From positions 1 to 9,886 of the forward strand of contig JAKACB010000026.1 of NCBI GenBank assembly GCA_021796445.1: 9,886 bases of DNA, written 5' to 3'. This DNA comes from Nanobdellota archaeon (GTDB taxonomy: Archaea > Nanoarchaeota > Nanoarchaeia > Parvarchaeales > Parvarchaeaceae). The translations under genes were made by a program, and so were the position numbers. Each line of letters begins with the position of its first letter. Position 1 is the first letter of the stretch. Shown piece after piece: positions 1 through 8,908 of this stretch. Below the pieces are notes generated by a model that saw only the letters and a list, made by a program, of their open reading frames with translations, made no database searches and was not told the DNA's origin.

Positions 1-1884
1 GTAATTTGTGTAGTTTATTTCCCTGCTAAACATGCTTGAGTAGTTAACTTTGTTAGTGGATACTGCTGATACACTATTATTCATTGAATAAATGCTATTC
101 AATATTACTCTGTCAAAACTTACCAACTCAGAAATATTAAAATTGCAGCTATTTACATCCTTGTAATTAGTTATATTATTTGTTATTGTATCTAGTTTAT
201 ATTCTGTAAAAGGGATAGAGGAGATATTCAAAGAATCATAAATGTAATAAGGTTTACTTGGCAAAATTGTAATATTCTGATATCCTAAGCAGTTTGGGCC
301 CACATACAAATTATAGGTATAATTATCAGGGCCGTTTTCAAGCGATACTTGGTAATCTCCTTGCTCTAAACTTAAAAGAGGCGGTTTCGATAAAGTTTCT
401 CCTGAAAAAACAGTATCATTTCCTTTAAGCAGACCAAAACTTAAATTTTGCCCTCCCTCAAAAAAGAGGTTTACCGGGAGGTACTTAGTTAAGTTCAAAC
501 TCTCTATGCTTATATTTGAGGTATTGCTGAGGACTACTTTTGAAGCATTATAATAATGAATTAATGGATTACTGCCTGACAAATATAAATAAAGATTTTT
601 AATCGAATTATTTACTGAGAAGACCGAATCATTGAAGGGCTGTGTCTCTAAAAAACTATTATCATTGTAATTTCCTTTTAAATTTATATAAATTCCATTT
701 AAACTGCAACCTAAAAGCGATTGAATTTTAACCAGGATTTGATGGTTTTGCGTTTTATTGGAATACTTTGCTGAATAGTTGATGTTATAGTTATTCTGCT
801 TAGCTGGATCCATGTTATAATTTTGTATGGAGTCTGACAGCAGCCTATCGTTTGCTTTGAACAAAAATACATTCCCATTGCCGCCATAGCCGAGATTAGA
901 GGTAGTATAAGAGGGAGGTAACTTAAAGGAGCTATCCAAATAAATTCTGCCGCCACTTACATTAAAAGTGCCATTATTGATAAATGAGCCTGAAATTACC
1001 TGGATTACTCCGCCGCCGCCTGCGCCTATAATCCCATACGCAAGAAAGTTATCTGCGTTTTTGATAGTTGAATAGTTTATTGACTGACCTTGATTGTAGA
1101 TGGTGCCTGTGTTATTAAAGGCCTTAGAAATTATTACCAGAGGTAATACCCCACTGCTGCCACGCATAAAAAAGGAAGAATTAGTTACGCCGTTATAAGA
1201 TGCCCCGCCGGCGCTGTTCAGTAAACTCAAATTGAAAGAATAATTAGAAAGTGTGGAATAAACATGATAACCTGAACTATTAATTATTGGATATAACATA
1301 TGGTTTTGGTAACTAGTAACTTGACCTATTCCTCTATTTGTCAGAGTATACCCTCCATCACATTGACTATAATTAGCCAAACTTCCTCCACCACTTCCTG
1401 CAAAAGAGTATGGAAAACTTCCTCCTATACAAATACCATAGCCATTTGCATACCCTCCATTGTTTAGATAATTTTCATTAACAATAGAGCCGTTGTTTAG
1501 AAAATAGCTAAAATTAAGGAAAAGGGGTTTTTCTAAGATTAAAGTACCGTAATTCTCAAGGACATGGCCGCTAAGAAGTGTTGCATTTATTGTGGCATTT
1601 CCTTCGTTTATTATCTTACTTATATTTAAAGTAGAATTTCCAGTAATACTAAACGTATTATTTATAAACAAACCTTTTGCGAATATAGTTTTAGAAACCA
1701 AAGAAATAGGGCTTTGAACAATTACCCACTGGTAGGTACAAACAAAATTTGAGGAATTCGTTAGAGTTATATTTTGATTATAGCAGGAAATGCCATTGCT
1801 GTTTCCAAAGCTTAAAAATAAGATAAATATTACTAAGATGGACACTACAAAACCAATTATCACGTTAATATTTTTATTTGCCAT
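1..1884 (-). CDS. Large Asn-rich secreted or membrane-anchored surface protein (C-terminus beyond window)
   Basis: I translated the reverse strand by hand from the ATG at 1884. All 628 codons to base 1 are open, so the gene continues past the left edge. Residues 9-27 form one hydrophobic segment (IIGFVVSILVIFILFLSFG), a signal peptide or anchor, placing the rest outside the cell. The remainder is rich in Asn, Ser, Thr, Tyr and Gly, with about 36 N-x-S/T sequons, as expected of an archaeal surface glycoprotein. Seven cysteines fall at about 34, 49, 152, 175, 393, 532 and 580, so disulfides are possible. Short strand-like units such as INNGTFNVSGG and LENYGTLILE, plus glycine loops near 163-168 and 287-292, suggest a parallel beta-helix. 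No enzyme motif or named family was recognised. It diverges from orc1/cdc6 across the putative origin and has its own TATA box and Shine-Dalgarno. Start choice is supported by both. An S-layer, adhesin or envelope role is inference. Confidence 0.85.
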   Translation of the reverse strand, partial: MANKNINVIIGFVVSILVIFILFLSFGNSNGISCYNQNITLTNSSNFVCTYQWVIVQSPISLVSKTIFAKGLFINNTFSITGNSTLNISKIINEGNATINATLLSGHVLENYGTLILEKPLFLNFSYFLNNGSIVNENYLNNGGYANGYGICIGGSFPYSFAGSGGGSLANYSQCDGGYTLTNRGIGQVTSYQNHMLYPIINSSGYHVYSTLSNYSFNLSLLNSAGGASYNGVTNSSFFMRGSSGVLPLVIISKAFNNTGTIYNQGQSINYSTIKNADNFLAYGIIGAGGGGVIQVISGSFINNGTFNVSGGRIYLDSSFKLPPSYTTSNLGYGGNGNVFLFKANDRLLSDSIQNYNMDPAKQNNYNINYSAKYSNKTQNHQILVKIQSLLGCSLNGIYINLKGNYNDNSFLETQPFNDSVFSVNNSIKNLYLYLSGSNPLIHYYNASKVVLSNTSNISIESLNLTKYLPVNLFFEGGQNLSFGLLKGNDTVFSGETLSKPPLLSLEQGDYQVSLENGPDNYTYNLYVGPNCLGYQNITILPSKPYYIYDSLNISSIPFTEYKLDTITNNITNYKDVNSCNFNISELVSFDRVILNSIYSMNNSVSAVSTNKVNYSSMFSREINYTNY

Positions 1885-1981: not shown

Positions 1982-2010
1982 AGAGACACCTATATTTCCA
2001 GTGGAAACGA
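1982..2010 (-). repeat. Origin recognition box 1 (ORB)
   Basis: Contains the perfect inverted repeat TTTCC-AGT-GGAAA at 1995-2007, followed on the plus strand by CGAA as in described archaeal ORBs. On the conserved side it carries AGAGACACCTATA (from 1982). The 14 bases ACACCTATATTTCC (1986-1999) recur exactly at 2069-2082, and AGAGACACCTA (1982-1992) recurs inverted at 2190-2200. Read on the minus strand, the order is dyad, four A/T bases, then GGTGTCTCT, which stands where other archaea have a run of G. Confidence 0.8.
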
Positions 2011-2040
2011 ATTGGTTTGTAATCGAAGCAATACGTGACA

Positions 2041-2052
2041 TTTCAACGGAAA
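2041..2052 (-). repeat. Possible mini-ORB
   Basis: TTTCAACGGAAA here reads TTTCCGTTGAAA on the minus strand, a degenerate copy of the dyad TTTCCAGTGGAAA without the AGAGACACC flank. It lies between ORB 1 and ORB 2. Resemblance is partial and could be chance in A/T-rich DNA. Confidence 0.35.
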
Positions 2053-2055
2053 TTT

Positions 2056-2068
2056 TTTCTTGTGGAAT
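2056..2068 (+). repeat. Possible mini-ORB
   Basis: TTTCTTGTGGAAT matches the dyad TTTCCAGTGGAAA at 10 of 13 positions and abuts ORB 2 directly. It could be an extra initiator site in a tandem pair with ORB 2, but it lacks the conserved flank. Confidence 0.35.
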
Positions 2069-2095
2069 ACACCTATATTTCCTATGGAAGGTATA
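2067..2095 (-). repeat. Origin recognition box 2 (ORB)
   Basis: Shares ACACCTATATTTCC exactly with ORB 1 and continues TATGGAA against AGTGGAA, so the dyad here is TTTCC-TAT-GGAAG (2078-2090). Its centre is about 83 bases from that of ORB 1, in the same orientation. It borders the A/T-rich unwinding region. The outer flank is AATACACC rather than AGAGACACC. Confidence 0.75.
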
Positions 2096-2171
2096 TTATT
2101 ATATTTATTATAATTCTATATAGAATATAGGATAGTATATAGCTATATTGATAACTTATTTTATTTAAATA
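2092..2171. other. A/T-rich duplex unwinding region
   Basis: About 80 bases with very few G or C, lying between the inward sides of ORB 2 and ORB 3. It includes two perfect palindromes, ATTCTATATAGAAT (2113-2126) and ATATAGCTATAT (2137-2148). This is the place where duplex melting would be expected if the origin call is right. The palindromes could instead be simple low-complexity by-products. Confidence 0.6.
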
Positions 2172-2200
2172 CATTCTCCATAAGAAACGTAGGTGTCTCT
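2172..2200 (+). repeat. Origin recognition box 3 (ORB), inverted relative to 1 and 2
   Basis: The reverse complement begins AGAGACACCTACGTTTC and continues TTATGGAGA, matching ORB 1 in the 11-base flank AGAGACACCTA exactly and in most of the dyad (TTTCTTATGGAGA against TTTCCAGTGGAAA). The GGTGTCTCT part points outward, towards orc1/cdc6, while those of ORB 1 and 2 point the other way, so the boxes bracket the A/T-rich region. Confidence 0.75.
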
Positions 2201-2260
2201 GTATTATTAGTTAAATAGAGTTATTTAAATAAAGTTATATAACTAAATTTGCTAATAGTA

Positions 2261-2268
2261 TTTAAATG
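2261..2268 (+). promoter_or_regulatory. TATA box of orc1/cdc6
   Basis: TTTAAATG, preceded by AGTA, is centred about 31 bases before the ATG at 2296, so transcription would start only a few bases before the start codon and the mRNA would be nearly leaderless. No Shine-Dalgarno is visible. A second TTTAAATA lies at 2224-2231, within an 11-base direct repeat TTATTTAAATA (2161-2171 and 2221-2231). Confidence 0.5.
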
Positions 2269-2295: not shown

Positions 2296-3564
2296 ATGGA
2301 AACCTTTCAATCCGATAATGACCTTTTCCAGAAAACAGATACTAATAAAATAAACAGCGTTGATCCAATAACAATATTCAATGAGTTTCTTACCAGTAAA
2401 CGCATATTTAAAAACAAAGAGGTTTTGTCTTCTTCCTTTATCCCGGATGAAATAATGCACAGAAATACAGAAATAGCCGTCATGTCGAGAATCATGGCCC
2501 CTAGTTTGATATTTGAAGACATTTCTAATGTTTTGGTTTACGGGTTTTCAGGAACCGGTAAATCCTTAGTTACAAAATATGTCGGTAAGAAATTAGCAAG
2601 CTCCGCAGAGGAGAAAAAAGTAAACGTACTTCCCGTTTATATGAACTGCAGGTTGGAAAACAATAATACAGAATATAGATTGATAGCAAATTTATGTGCC
2701 GTTTTTAACATAAATGTTCCGGAAAGTGGTCTTTCAGTAAATAGTTTATATAAGAGGCTTATAAAAATAATAGATGCCGAAAGCACCTATCTTATTCTCA
2801 TCTTGGACGAAATAGAAAAACTTATACAGCATGCAGGCGATGGTGTATTGTACAGTCTTCTTAGACTGAATGAATCTCTTAAGCATGCAAAGATCTCTAT
2901 AATTGGTATATCAAATAACATTGACTTAAAGGCTTCTCTAGATCAAAGAGTAAGAAGTTCTTTAAATCCTGTTGAAATCATCTTCAAGCCATATAATGCA
3001 GAAGAGATATTCAATATCTTATTGACTCGTTCAAAAGAAGCATTTTATGAAAATGCAATAAGTGAGGGGGTTCTAAGGAAATGCGCGGCGATAGTTGCAC
3101 AAGAACATGGAGATATAAGAAAGGCTCTGGATCTGTTAAAGGTTGCAGGGGAAAGGACACAACAGCTTGGTAAATCTGTTATAACTGAAGAGGAATTGGA
3201 TAACGCTGCAGAAGCTCTCGAACAAAATATAACCGAAGGTATGATTAAATCTATGACTAGGCAGAGCAAATGCATACTTCTTTCTATCATTTCAGTTGCA
3301 AGGAACAAAAGAATGGGCAGAGTGTACAGCGGAGAGGTTTATGATACCTATCTTAAACTTTCCGAAAAGTTCGGACTTAAGAAACTGACATTTAGACGCA
3401 TTTCCGACTTAATTGCAGACATGGATTATAATTCTTTAGTCATGTCTCGTATAAAGAGTCATGGTAGATATGGCAGAACAAGGGAATTAAACATCGCATT
3501 CTCTCCTTCCATAATAAACAAGGCAGAGATGATAATAAAAGAAGAGTTAAATATTACTACTTAA
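2296..3564 (+). CDS. cdc6: Orc1/Cdc6 replication initiator (AAA+ ATPase)
   Basis: Binds origin recognition boxes and loads the MCM helicase. At 422 residues it is the usual full length. Visible in order: N-terminal region with the family-typical HRNTEIAVMSRIMAPSL (about 56-72); Walker A GFSGTGKS (83-90); Walker B LILILDE (166-172); sensor 1 GISNN (204-208); an arginine pair in DQRVRSS (216-222), the expected arginine-finger region; sensor 2 GDIRKALDLL (272-281); and a C-terminal winged helix (about 325-410) whose wing reads SHGRYGRTREL, as in archaeal homologues that grip ORB DNA. All ATPase motifs look intact, so it should be active. It follows the putative origin directly, the standard archaeal arrangement, and probably binds those boxes and may control its own promoter. 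Transcribed alone; the next gene has its own promoter and Shine-Dalgarno. Confidence 0.95.
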   Translation: METFQSDNDLFQKTDTNKINSVDPITIFNEFLTSKRIFKNKEVLSSSFIPDEIMHRNTEIAVMSRIMAPSLIFEDISNVLVYGFSGTGKSLVTKYVGKKLASSAEEKKVNVLPVYMNCRLENNNTEYRLIANLCAVFNINVPESGLSVNSLYKRLIKIIDAESTYLILILDEIEKLIQHAGDGVLYSLLRLNESLKHAKISIIGISNNIDLKASLDQRVRSSLNPVEIIFKPYNAEEIFNILLTRSKEAFYENAISEGVLRKCAAIVAQEHGDIRKALDLLKVAGERTQQLGKSVITEEELDNAAEALEQNITEGMIKSMTRQSKCILLSIISVARNKRMGRVYSGEVYDTYLKLSEKFGLKKLTFRRISDLIADMDYNSLVMSRIKSHGRYGRTRELNIAFSPSIINKAEMIIKEELNITT

Positions 3565-5454: not shown

Positions 5455-6591
5455 ATGTCAGATGAAATAAAAAAGGTTTTGAACTCTGAAAAATTATCCT
5501 ATGAGTTGTATTCAAAACTTGAAAGTATAGAAAGAAATAAGCAGTTGAGAAAGAAACTGAAGGAACTTAAAGAACTAGACGTAAAGCACATCAAAGTATG
5601 GACTGAGATATATACCGAATTAAATATTCCTGTGAAGGAAAAAGCAAATAAAATTGAGCTTTTTCTTTTTGTTTTACTAAGAAGACTGTTCGGCAGCGGC
5701 CTTACATTAAGCGTAATTAATTCTTTGGAAAATAGGAAAGTTTCCGATTTGTCAAAAATTTTTGATATTATACCGGATAAACAAAGAGAGAAGGTAGTCA
5801 ACTACTTAGTCGAAGAGCTTTATCAGGAAAGAATTCTTAAAAAAGAATCCTGGGAAAGCGGAGTTTTATCCCACATAAGAGACGTGGTTTTTGGCATGAA
5901 TGACGGTTTAGTCGAAGTTTTGGCAGCAGTAGCTGGGTTTACAGGCGCCATACATGACAACCTGCTTATAGCAGTTGCAGGCACCATAGTAGGTTTATCT
6001 GGTACTATCTCAATGGCAGTGGGCGCTTATCTTTCCTCTAAATCTGAGAAAGATTTGGAATTTGAGGGCATAACCCGGTTAGAATTAGAGTTACAGGTAG
6101 CTAAGGAAAGATTAAAGGAGGATTTAGAAAAGCATTCTTTGAACTATCAAAAATTTGACAAGTCTTTAGAAGATCTTATTTCAAAATTAAAGAAAGAAAG
6201 AGACCCTATCTATAAAGTACTTGAAAGAGAAAGGAAAAATCCGCTTATGAATTTCATAAGTGGCAACGGTAAAATTTATCAAAGTAATAATTCGGTTAAT
6301 CCCGTAAAAGATGCGTTGTATGTGGGCGTGTTCTACATTTTTGGGGCAATTATACCCTTAATAAGCTTTCTTATCGGTTCTATAATTAAATCTAATACTT
6401 ATTATAATTTAGTGATATCAGTTATTTTGGCGTCTATAGCAATTGCCATTACTTCCCTTATAATAGCCCTTAATTCAAATGAAAAAGTATTTAGGTACAT
6501 AGGGAAAGCGTTAGGGCTTAGTCTTACTGCGGCGTTTGTCACTTTTTTAGTAGGCCACTTGGCTTCCGTTTACCTGCACATTGCCATTTAA
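5455..6591 (+). CDS. VIT1/CCC1-family iron/manganese transporter with N-terminal ferritin-like domain
   Basis: A 378-residue membrane protein. Residues 1-130 match the helical rubrerythrin/ferritin-like domain seen in MbfA-type proteins: E12 in SEKLSYELYSKLE and D42/H45 in the place of the usual ExxH. The VIT1 part starts near 139 with the signature RDVVFGMNDGLVEVLAAVAG (142-161); helix 2 (about 170-195) carries the conserved Met in ISMAVGAYLS; a charged helical region (about 200-262, Glu/Lys-rich) matches the metal-binding domain; helices 3-5 lie at about 286-310, 317-340 and 351-375, with the typical VKDALYVGVFYIFGAIIPL. It likely moves Fe2+ or Mn2+ out of the cytoplasm, protecting against metal overload. 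The iron-binding residues of the ferritin-like domain look incomplete (second site EELYQERI has no His). No Shine-Dalgarno or TATA box is evident, so it is probably read from the gene upstream. Confidence 0.88.
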   Translation: MSDEIKKVLNSEKLSYELYSKLESIERNKQLRKKLKELKELDVKHIKVWTEIYTELNIPVKEKANKIELFLFVLLRRLFGSGLTLSVINSLENRKVSDLSKIFDIIPDKQREKVVNYLVEELYQERILKKESWESGVLSHIRDVVFGMNDGLVEVLAAVAGFTGAIHDNLLIAVAGTIVGLSGTISMAVGAYLSSKSEKDLEFEGITRLELELQVAKERLKEDLEKHSLNYQKFDKSLEDLISKLKKERDPIYKVLERERKNPLMNFISGNGKIYQSNNSVNPVKDALYVGVFYIFGAIIPLISFLIGSIIKSNTYYNLVISVILASIAIAITSLIIALNSNEKVFRYIGKALGLSLTAAFVTFLVGHLASVYLHIAI

Positions 6592-6605
6592 TTGAATTTT
6601 TATGC

Positions 6606-6617
6606 CTAAAAATTAAT
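6606..6617 (+). promoter_or_regulatory. Possible TATA box of nnrE
   Basis: CTAAAAATTAAT is centred about 29 bases before the ATG at 6641 in a 49-base gap. The match to the archaeal consensus is modest. A T-run just before it (6597-6601) could end the transcript of the transporter gene. Confidence 0.3.
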
Positions 6618-6640
6618 AGAATTGATGCTAATTATAAAAC

Positions 6641-7279
6641 ATGGAATATTACAGCATAGAGGAAATAAAGAAGATTGAAGACGAAGCAATAAGGAAGGGC
6701 ATGACTGAAGAAAAGATGATGGATGCTGCCGGTCATTTAGTGGCCGATTTTATACATAGTAATATAGAATTTAATAAAGCAGTTTTTATAGCGGGCACTG
6801 GAAATAACGGAGGGGATACTTTATCAGCAGCTTTCCATTTATTTAATTTGGGCCATTCCGGCATAAAAGTTGTAATAGTTGGAAAAAAAGAAGAGTTGAA
6901 AGAAGGGCCACGGAACTTCCTTTATCTTATAAATGGCATAAAAGATATCCCAGTGAATTTCGCTTATGATTCAACAGAATTAGAAAGCCTAAATGAAACC
7001 ATAAAGAATGCAGATCTTTTAGTTGTTGGTATTTTTGGTATGGGCTTTCATGGAGATCTGCCGGATTTGGCAGAAAAGGCAATCGATTTAATAAATGATT
7101 CAAATGCCAAAAAGGTAAGTGTTGACATACCCTCTGGAATGAACGGGGATACGGGAGAGTTTAGAAAAACAGTAAAGTCAGATTTTACACTTACAATGAT
7201 GACCATGAAAAAGGCCTTTCAAAACCAGCAAGCTTTAACCGTTACCGGCAAAGTTTTCGTCATGGATTTATTAAACTAA
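6641..7279 (+). CDS. nnrE: NAD(P)H-hydrate epimerase (YjeF_N domain)
   Basis: Interconverts the R and S forms of damaged NAD(P)H hydrate so that a dehydratase can restore the cofactor. At 212 residues it is the stand-alone epimerase domain; the ADP/ATP-dependent dehydratase part (NnrD), often fused, is absent here and not seen nearby. Family marks: MMDAAGHLVADF (26-37) at the usual ENAG region, GTGNNGGDTLSAAFHL (52-67) for nucleotide and potassium binding, IFGMGFHGDL (131-140), and DIPSGMNGDTG (162-172). The Asp usually seen in VDAxFGxG is replaced: the sequence reads LVVGIFGMG, with Val129 where that Asp belongs, which may alter potassium binding. No membrane segment. Start at 6641 follows a weak TATA-like region; the next gene, sufS, has its own promoter. 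Confidence 0.9.
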   Translation: MEYYSIEEIKKIEDEAIRKGMTEEKMMDAAGHLVADFIHSNIEFNKAVFIAGTGNNGGDTLSAAFHLFNLGHSGIKVVIVGKKEELKEGPRNFLYLINGIKDIPVNFAYDSTELESLNETIKNADLLVVGIFGMGFHGDLPDLAEKAIDLINDSNAKKVSVDIPSGMNGDTGEFRKTVKSDFTLTMMTMKKAFQNQQALTVTGKVFVMDLLN

Positions 7280-7286
7280 TATAACG

Positions 7287-7311
7287 CTGTTATATTTATA
7301 AATAATAACAG
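7287..7311. promoter_or_regulatory. suf promoter with an inverted repeat around the TATA box (operator-like)
   Basis: CTGTTAT (7287-7293) and ATAACAG (7305-7311) form a perfect inverted repeat, 11 bases apart, exactly bracketing the TATA box TTTATAAATA (7295-7304). The TATA box is about 26 bases before the sufS ATG at 7324, so the mRNA is leaderless. A dimeric regulator bound here would block TBP, which would suit iron- or Fe-S-dependent repression. The regulator is unknown. Confidence 0.55.
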
Positions 7312-7323
7312 TTAGATAGTGCT

Positions 7324-8544
7324 ATGAATAATATGGACATAGAAAAGATACGCAGAGATTTTCCAATTTTGTTTAAAAAGATAAACGGCAATCCTCTAGT
7401 ATATCTGGACAATGCGGCGACTTCTCAAAAGCCATCTGCAGTCATAGAAGGCATTAAGTATTTTTATGAGAACATAAACGCTAACCCTATAAGAAGCATA
7501 CACGGCTTGGCAGAAGAGGCTACAAAGGCATATAATAATGCAAGAGAAAAAGTTGCCGCTTTCATAAATGCAGAGCCTGAAGAGATAGTTTTTGTTAGAA
7601 ACGCTACCGAGGCTATAAATCTAATTTCCTTTGCTTTTCCTTTTAAGAACGGTGACAGGGTTTCAACAACATACATGGAGCACCATTCAAATCTTTTGCC
7701 ATGGCTTCGCTTAAAAGAAAGAGGGATAAATGTTGACATAGTTTCGGTTTCTGACGATTATGAATTAGATATGGATTATTATAAACAGCTGCCTAAAAAT
7801 ACAAGGCTAGTTGCAGTAACCCACGTTTCAAATGTTACCGGTACAGTAAATGATGTAAAGGAGATAACAAAACTTTCGCATGAGCAAGGCTCTTTGGTCC
7901 TTGTAGACGCGGCACAGTCCATACCGCACATGAAATTTAATGTTAAAAATATAGGGGCTGATTTTGTAGCCTTCTCTGGTCATAAAATGCTTGCTCCTTT
8001 TGGTATAGGCGTTTTATACATAAAAAAGGATATAGCAGAAAATTTAAAGCCTTTTTTGACAGGCGGCGAAATGATAAAGGATGTAAGCCTGTCAAGAGTT
8101 ATCTATGAAAACGCTCCGAACCTGTTTGAGGCTGGTACCCAAAATGTTGAAGGCGCTTACGGCTTAGGTTTAGCCGTTGACTATCTAAATGAAATAGGGA
8201 TGGAAAACATAGAGAAATACGAAAATGAGCTCACTGCTTACTTATATGAAAAAGCAAAAGAACTTAATAACATAGAAATATACAGCGGGAAGAGTAAAAG
8301 ATTTGGCGGCATATTCTCATTTAATGTTTCGGGTCTGCATTCACATGATACTGCTTATTTGCTGGATAAAAAAGGAATAGCTATTAGATCTGGTTTTCAT
8401 TGCGCACAGCCATTAATAGAAGATAGACTAAAGTTAGATGGAGCAGCGAGAGCAAGTCTTTACTTTTACAATACAAAGGAAGAAATAGATACTTTCATAA
8501 ATGAATTAAATAATATAGCTGTTAAGTATGGAAAACGACGATAA
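7324..8544 (+). CDS. sufS: Cysteine desulfurase, SufS type (group II)
   Basis: PLP enzyme that takes sulfur from cysteine and leaves it as a persulfide for Fe-S cluster assembly. At 406 residues it has the usual length. Motifs in order: YLDNAATSQKP; NPIRSIHGLA; FVRNATEAINLI; EHHSNLLPW with His121, which stacks on PLP; DAAQS with Asp195 and Gln198, which contact PLP; SGHKMLAPFGIGVLY with the PLP lysine Lys221; FEAGTQNVEGAYGLG; and RSGFHCAQPL with Arg355 and the catalytic Cys360. All catalytic residues look present. The short spacing around Cys360 and the HCAQP motif place it in the SufS/CsdA group rather than IscS. It ends 17 bases inside sufU, so the two are co-transcribed and probably act as a pair. 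SufB, SufC and SufD are not in the window. Confidence 0.95.
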   Translation: MNNMDIEKIRRDFPILFKKINGNPLVYLDNAATSQKPSAVIEGIKYFYENINANPIRSIHGLAEEATKAYNNAREKVAAFINAEPEEIVFVRNATEAINLISFAFPFKNGDRVSTTYMEHHSNLLPWLRLKERGINVDIVSVSDDYELDMDYYKQLPKNTRLVAVTHVSNVTGTVNDVKEITKLSHEQGSLVLVDAAQSIPHMKFNVKNIGADFVAFSGHKMLAPFGIGVLYIKKDIAENLKPFLTGGEMIKDVSLSRVIYENAPNLFEAGTQNVEGAYGLGLAVDYLNEIGMENIEKYENELTAYLYEKAKELNNIEIYSGKSKRFGGIFSFNVSGLHSHDTAYLLDKKGIAIRSGFHCAQPLIEDRLKLDGAARASLYFYNTKEEIDTFINELNNIAVKYGKRR

Positions 8545-8908
8545 ATTCTATGAGTTGGTGGAGCTCTATAGAAATCCGGAACATTACGGTAAGCTTAGAA
8601 AATATAATTATTCTGAAGCAGGATATTCGCCATCATGCGGAGATAAATTTTCAGTGTATCTAGATGTTGAAAACGGTATAGTAAAAGATGCGTCTTTTGA
8701 TGGCAAGGGTTGTGTGATTTCAACGGTTTCGCTTTCAAAGCTATGCAGCTATCTTATTGGTAAACCCTTAAAAGAGGTTAAAGAAATGGAATTGAAGGAT
8801 ATTAAGAACCTGCTTGGCATAGAAGATATAAGTATTTCAAGAGTAAAATGCGCTACCGTCGGATTAGACACTGTAAAAAAGATATATAAAGAAATCAACA
8901 GTAGCTAA
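8528..8908 (+). CDS. sufU: SufU/IscU-like Fe-S scaffold or sulfur acceptor
   Basis: A 126-residue protein of the NifU_N/IscU fold. The metal-site residues are visible: Cys37 and Asp39 in SPSCGD, Cys62 in GKGCVIST, and Cys108 in RVKCATVGLDTV. GxGCxIS is SufU-like. The gap from Cys62 to Cys108 is 46 residues, close to IscU and shorter than in Bacillus SufU (about 62), so the insertion typical of Gram-positive SufU is missing. Lys107 stands where IscU has the His before the third Cys. It takes sulfur from SufS and passes it on, or holds a nascent cluster; which of the two cannot be told from sequence. The start overlaps sufS by 17 bases with no clear Shine-Dalgarno, suggesting coupled translation. 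Its stop lies three bases from the stop of the convergent nuclease gene. Confidence 0.9.
   Translation: MENDDKFYELVELYRNPEHYGKLRKYNYSEAGYSPSCGDKFSVYLDVENGIVKDASFDGKGCVISTVSLSKLCSYLIGKPLKEVKEMELKDIKNLLGIEDISISRVKCATVGLDTVKKIYKEINSS

Follow-up and report, generated by a model that had tools for sequence, protein, structure and literature searches.

The stretch of DNA analysed here (9,886 bp, referred to as the window) carries an orc1/cdc6 gene of a Parvarchaeota archaeon with a set of repeated boxes directly upstream, and it raises the question of whether this intergenic region is a replication origin of the known archaeal kind and, if so, which of its elements set it apart. The gene (2296..3564, plus strand) encodes a protein of 422 aa that matches the Pfam domains Cdc6_C (72.2 bits) and Cdc6_lid (70.7 bits). 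The protein is 100% identical to one of Candidatus Parvarchaeota isolate FK_Sedi_A_Bin.204 and 95% identical to a database protein named Candidatus Parvarchaeota, and the solved chains nearest to it are 2v1u_A, the Aeropyrum Orc1, and 2qby_A, which we take to be Sulfolobus Orc1-1. An orc1/cdc6 gene of the Orc1-1 kind therefore adjoins the boxes, as in archaeal oriC1-type ORB origins, and the kinship of its product with crenarchaeal initiators, whose DNA-bound structures are treated in PMC9738581, supports reading the locus as an origin. A probable TATA box, TATTTAAAT (2259..2267, plus strand, 29-37 bp upstream of the ATG), likely serves as the promoter element of orc1.

Divergent to orc1 across the putative origin is an Asn/Ser-rich open frame of 628 aa (1-1884, minus strand) with a hydrophobic N-terminus, which runs off the window; it had no match in a Pfam search, and its homologues in relatives are 30-82% identical. 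Downstream, genes of the VIT1-family, YjeF_N, aminotransferase class V (SufS-like) and NifU_N-like types occupy 5455-8908 on the plus strand. Synteny around the locus is preserved among close relatives only, and no viral contig was confirmed.

Upstream of orc1 are three full ORBs, all conserved in relatives. Box 1 (1982..2007, minus strand; 37.3 bits) consists of a perfect dyad TTTCCAGTGGAAA at 1995-2007 and the G-element AGGTGTCTCT (reverse complement) at 1982-1991; box 2 (2069..2090, minus strand; 35.7 bits) has its dyad at 2078-2090 and AGGTGT (reverse complement) at 2069-2074; and box 3 (2175..2200, plus strand; 33.3 bits) has its dyad at 2175-2187 and AGGTGTCTCT at 2191-2200. These scores were obtained with a leave-out matrix made from 23 strong sites of loci L010-L018 only, whose Orc1 proteins are 63-71% identical. 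With the same matrix, the best match in the window outside the origin reaches 8.1 bits, and 500 order-1 Markov simulations of the 9,886-bp window gave best matches averaging 5.7 bits (s.d. 3.1, highest 20.2). The first-pass annotation had described three boxes with the ORB dyad, perfect in box 1, and an altered G part kept exactly in two inverted copies; both descriptions are accurate in sequence and position, the exact inverted copies being the AGGTGTCTCT of boxes 1 and 3, and AGGTGT in box 2 is followed by ATTCC. It had overlooked two elements, a further dyad at 2056-2067 and a palindrome at 2114-2125. The former (TTTCTTGTGGAA, minus strand) is degenerate and mini-ORB-like, and lies 22 bp from the box-2 dyad, an offset found in 18 of the 19 loci compared below; box 2 is thus a tandem of a full ORB and a mini-ORB-like dyad with two helical turns between them. 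The inverted boxes 2 and 3 enclose a stretch of 86% AT (2091..2176), probably the unwinding element, and this arrangement of at least two inverted ORBs, each with dyad and G-element, around an AT-rich stretch is that of oriC1-type origins.

Genome-wide tests were made in relatives' genomes, and the loci of the order to which the host belongs were counted as 19 (the window and L002-L019), after removal of duplicate loci of the same contigs and of L001, which is near-identical to the window; L007 and L008, although near-copies, were both retained. These 19 loci contain 52 sites of at least 24 bits, in the strand layout --+ in 14 loci and -+ in five. As the order loci are related, their mutual agreement is not independent evidence. 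When 32 genomes of the order were searched with the full-box pattern, all 34 matches with at most two mismatches adjoined orc1; they came from 17 of the 18 genomes with an Orc1, G147 being the exception. The 15 matches with three mismatches were divided between orc1 origins (seven) and other places (eight), and a control pattern gave 11 matches in all. The box thus recurs upstream of orc1/cdc6 in related genomes with the same layout, and because every close match lies beside orc1, it is not a sequence that occurs widely away from origins. Among 25 altiarchaeotal loci (one of them without upstream sequence), isolated ORB-like matches occurred in two, and the palindrome was absent. Box scores, layout and orc1-linked recurrence all agree with the earlier proposal of an ORB origin adjacent to Orc1/Cdc6. 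Judged from sequence alone, the locus is very likely an orc1-adjacent, oriC1-type replication origin, and the gene at 2296..3564 probably encodes the cognate initiator of the boxes.

Compositional profiles of relatives' contigs gave discordant results. On a 157-kb contig (G007:C22) the origin ranked 173rd of 195 points for the rise in GC skew; on G006:C9 the purine and AT minima coincided with the origin, but near the contig end; and on G147:C12 the GC minimum was about 6 kb from the origin, so the contigs of the three relatives disagree. Further, Orc1 is absent from 14 of the 32 order genomes. Both the missing skew switch in one relative and these Orc1-less genomes would be expected if the locus were a dormant or captured origin and not the main chromosomal one. 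However, most Orc1-bearing genomes of the order have one Orc1, the window genes VIT1, YjeF_N, aminotransferase class V and NifU_N look chromosomal, and the Orc1-less genomes are scattered on a tree of MCM from 20 genomes (six changes vs. a shuffled mean of 7.0), one of them (G145) having a contig that ends at box 2. We therefore read the missing Orc1 as assembly loss, and regard a dormant or captured origin as quite improbable. The idea that one lineage within the order lost Orc1 was likewise rejected, given the scatter on the MCM tree. MCM itself is absent from six of the 32 genomes; among the Orc1-less ones 11 of 14 have it, among the Orc1-bearing ones 15 of 18. In eight genomes (G001, G004, G015, G094, G130, G132, G138, and G146), the MCM domain matches are split within unusually long open frames (1,075-1,639 aa), as they would be by inteins. 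In the order, contig ends frequently fall inside the origin or no more than about 1.3 kb upstream of orc1 (e.g., L001, L003, L006, and L143).

The first-pass annotation placed the peculiarity of this origin in the G-element, which it took for a lineage-specific replacement of the G run of Pyrococcus and Sulfolobus ORBs, separated from the dyad by a few A/T bases and read by a co-evolved winged helix of Orc1/Cdc6. The common ORB motif given in PMC4164010 ends in GAAA[TC][GA]AAGGGGT. Aligned with it, box 1 (GAAATATAGGTGT) keeps the canonical register and has T for the third G, AGGTGT being one base away from AGGGGT; since the register is that of the common motif, the A/T spacer is normal too. 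The canonical GGGG string is absent from the boxes of the window, where AGGTGT takes its place in the same register. Nor is a G run general in the Pyrococcus family, as the first Thermococcaceae motif given in PMC4164010 ends in CTC without one. Because published families differ in this way, we did not take GGGG as defining an oriC1-type origin.

The distribution of the G-element was followed in 89 loci of the phylum outside the order, 81 of which have sites of at least 24 bits. The 143 strong sites outside the order include 85 of GGG type and 47 of GGT type; by locus (86 loci), 44 have GGG only, 22 GGT only, 12 both, and 8 neither. On a tree of 107 Orc1 proteins (two entries with a faulty start codon were left out), the G/T state changes at least 11 times. 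A tetranucleotide behind the G-element behaves differently: CTCT follows 27 of the 52 strong order sites vs. 1 of the 143 outside, is present in all 19 order loci and outside the order only in L131, and requires two changes on the tree. Lineage-specific tails of the G-element have a precedent in the extended G-strings of haloarchaeal oriC1 (PMC3936714). The claim of lineage specificity therefore survives for the CTCT tail and falls for the GGT core: as far as the sequences tell, AGGTGT is a commonplace departure from AGGGGT, and only the CTCT behind it is specific to the lineage. A clade-specific code was rejected, GGT-type sites being common in the phylum, often beside GGGG, and arising repeatedly on the tree.

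The supposed co-evolution with the winged helix is dissociated by a single locus, L067, which was assigned to the order by search, is sister to the 19 loci on the tree, and has GGGGT and GGGGG boxes without CTCT. Its Orc1 already contains F366, Y378, and S380, the winged-helix residues of the order, so the winged-helix changes precede the change of the G-element, and co-evolution of the two was rejected. The published accounts also place the contact elsewhere. PMC3936714 attributes recognition of the G-string to the AAA+ domain; in the Aeropyrum complex described in PMC9738581, contacts to the dyad come from the winged helix and those to the G-track from the ISM, and the Sulfolobus heterodimer is described there as lacking the ISM contact with the G-track. 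Four winged-helix arginines (R367, R368, R391, and R394), which presumably correspond to the contacting arginines of PMC9738581, are invariant in the 19 order and 86 other Orc1 proteins. In the ISM loop, position 144 is S in all 19 order proteins and T in all 86 others, including L067; this is one event, and its link to the G-element is only suggestive. ISM column 143 is A in 16 of 21 T-type vs. 10 of 44 G-type proteins outside the order (Fisher 8.5e-5, second of 706 tests among those listed), an association that comprises only three independent pairs with relatedness uncontrolled, and that is likewise only suggestive of an ISM role in reading the G-element. Even with CTCT in every order locus and exact outer copies of AGGTGTCTCT in the window, boxes defined by a lineage-specific G-element and a co-evolved winged helix thus appear very improbable, and the G-element is shown not to be a lineage code.

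The element that does set this origin apart is the overlooked palindrome TTCTATATAGAA (2114..2125; 20-bp context ATAATTCTATATAGAATATA, 2110-2129), located in the AT-rich stretch 171-182 bp from the orc1 ATG. It has the centre TATATA and sits in a nearly invariant block beside box 2 that is common to nine close relatives. Of the 19 order loci, 15 carry it unchanged and four with one mismatch; a match of this quality would arise by chance in comparable AT-rich sequence with a probability of 0.016 per locus, though the loci are related. Its spacing is also kept: the distance between the centres of palindrome and box 2 is 34.5-36.5 bp in 18 loci and 39.5 in one, and that to box 3 is 60.5-62.5 bp in 15, the remaining four deviating by about 8-11 bp, close to one turn of the helix. 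At that place L067 carries another palindrome. Among the 32 order genomes, 15 have exact TTCTATATAGAA at the orc1 origin, six further copies lie away from it, and its reversed control occurred 11 times. We consider the palindrome a probable site of a candidate second origin-binding protein.

Beyond the order, we examined the upstream regions of 87 further orc1 genes in the phylum (those of at least 80 bp; L021 was also left out). Here TTCTATATAGAA ranks first of all 4,096 palindromic 12-mers, ahead of the TA repeats, with eight loci where 0.036 are expected (Poisson 6e-17), and TTCAATATTGAA ranks fourth (four loci vs. 0.05 expected). The pattern TTCWATATWGAA is present in 25 of the 87 regions, compared with a mean of 0.3 and a maximum of 1 in 40 second-order simulations, and wherever these 25 regions hold a strong inverted pair of ORBs (14 loci), it lies between them. 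A 20-bp matrix, whose training set was 25 of these same 87 loci, scores above the 99% null in 51 loci and above the 95% null in 60. Genome-wide, the 12-mer has 63 sites in 119 genomes vs. 55 for its reversed control, with an excess only near orc1. The 20-bp form TATTTTCWATATWGAAAATA, allowing one mismatch, was found in 118 of 371 genomes with about 279 sites, vs. three for the reversed pattern, and with at most 11 sites in any genome; the 371 include the earlier genomes, and 39 of the 118 match-bearing genomes are in both sets. A search for the 20-bp form in the order genomes found none. These patterns bear on whether the palindrome could be no more than an AT-rich structural core for melting that has no protein partner, as its TATATA centre and its 86% AT surroundings might suggest. 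A melting core would not, however, explain why the C and G of TTC...GAA are kept in relatives as the centre varies as W, nor why the 20-bp form, with its large excess over the reversed pattern, is also found outside origins, and we judge it improbable.

To see what the 20-bp form accompanies, we examined 70 of 75 listed places, out of the approximately 279 sites; the five left out were three just upstream of orc1, one 0.8 kb from an examined orc1 place, and one where a contig ends. A simple ORF call puts 63 of the 70 in intergenic DNA, and 19 are beside orc1. The flanking genes were identified by scanning 43 proteins, which apart from L222R belong to the 107 motif-facing genes, and the rest were classed by similarity cluster. 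At the 51 non-orc1 places, the motif is faced by genes for ribonucleotide reductase (L217, L218, L220, and L248), XerA-type tyrosine recombinase (L241, above the NCBIfam cut-off; L208 and L264, by Pfam; L267, by cluster), primase (L213), DnaG (L214), gyrase B (L230) and A (L239), and a RecJ-like DHH protein (L216, below the NCBIfam cut-off). Together these account for 13 of the 51 places, where two to three would be expected if one assumes about 30 such genes per 1,000. Other motif-facing genes encode TBP (L245) and TFB (L215), or are unrelated (flippase, seryl-tRNA synthetase, SET protein, and RelA/SpoT-like). Beside orc1, the large subunit of PolD is divergent to it at three motif loci (L203 and L206, by Pfam; L204, by cluster). 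As separate observations, a tRNA-splicing endonuclease gene lies by the motif at L226, L227, L258, L259, and L261, divergent to RNase Z in all but L226, and the ribonucleotide reductase of L220 (1-1190, minus strand) is an anaerobic NRDD enzyme that combines an N-terminal NrdR-like zinc ribbon and an ATP cone in one protein.

The promoter-like spacing at the non-orc1 places, where the nearest facing gene start is at a median of 64 bp (49 of the 51), and the many genes there that have no part in replication are what one would expect if the palindrome were only an operator of a transcription factor controlling orc1, with no direct role in the origin. At orc1 the geometry is different, with a median of 192 bp to the start (17 loci), a position between inverted ORBs in every testable locus, and, in the window, phasing to box 2 at a comparable distance from the ATG. 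An operator pure and simple is, in our opinion, unlikely, and we favor a site with a role in the origin itself.

A candidate for the protein at such a site is suggested by position only. A TrmB-family gene is divergent to orc1 across the origin in six of the 19 orc1-linked places (L225, L250, L254, L255, L256, and L266); the product of L255, the sole one scanned, is above the cut-off for Pfam TrmB, and its best NCBIfam match, TrmBL2, is far below. TrmB-family homologues also occur in 26 of the 32 order genomes (E 5e-49 or better, 32-40% identity), on contigs other than that of orc1. Ten order loci were searched for a copy of the palindrome by the TrmB-like gene, as autoregulation would suggest, and none was found within one mismatch. 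The family is thus a lead as the palindrome binder.

From these sequence patterns we infer a scheme of origin activity in which the adjacent Orc1 would bind the three full ORBs, two on one side and one inverted on the opposite side, and more weakly the tandem dyad by box 2, with its winged helix reading the dyad and its AAA+/ISM face reading the G-element. From boxes 2 and 3, Orc1 would then guide MCM to the AT-rich stretch between them, where melting and MCM loading would take place, and the palindrome, in phase with box 2 inside this stretch, would bind a second protein, as the Sulfolobus ucm binds UBP. Related lineages also have the palindrome, in a longer version, at promoters of replication genes. 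More tentatively, and with slightly less than even confidence, we propose that the palindrome TATTTTCWATATWGAAAATA, which is spread across the phylum and reads ATAATTCTATATAGAATATA in the window, is recognised by a single DNA-binding protein with two roles, marking the origin unwinding region and controlling a regulon of replication genes (ribonucleotide reductase, primase, DnaG, gyrase, and XerA). If so, the supply of the replication machinery would be coupled to origin firing in DPANN archaea, and Parvarchaea would have retained mainly the origin site. A palindrome that is nearly fixed in the unwinding region and recurs at replication genes makes the idea of a second protein testable by DNA-affinity purification. 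Replication origins of DPANN archaea look little studied: among the papers listed by literature searches, no title or abstract opening dealt with them.

Compared with the oriC1-type ORB origins of Sulfolobus, Pyrococcus and haloarchaea, the locus shares the inverted ORBs that enclose an AT-rich stretch immediately ahead of the initiator gene, and the dyad with its downstream G-element in the same register. It differs in having AGGTGT for AGGGGT, CTCT on the outer boxes, the tandem dyad at box 2, and the palindrome in the AT-rich stretch. Bacterial NrdR boxes are also AT-rich palindromes before ribonucleotide reductase genes; however, they are pairs of 16-bp palindromes 15-16 bp apart (PMC12176259), and the window has a single palindrome. 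The haloarchaeal oriC1 described in PMC3936714 likewise contains an extra inverted element inside the ORB pair, which acts there as a replication enhancer, but that repeat is G-rich and directly beside the ORBs, whereas the palindrome here is AT-rich and about 35 bp from box 2. In the ucm/UBP system of Sulfolobus, as reported in PMC12141716, a short conserved motif lies in the unwinding region between inverted ORBs and has further copies in the genome; the palindrome is likewise a conserved motif between inverted ORBs. The ucm oligonucleotide in PMC12141716 differs from it in sequence (by eye), over 300 bound sites are reported for ucm, vs. at most 11 sites per genome here, and the function of ucm and its binding by UBP were shown there, the former by mutation, whereas the palindrome is known from sequence. 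The palindrome is therefore not a member of the ucm family, and at most may work like it. What is of known kind at this locus is the Orc1/ORB origin; what is new is the palindrome in its unwinding region.
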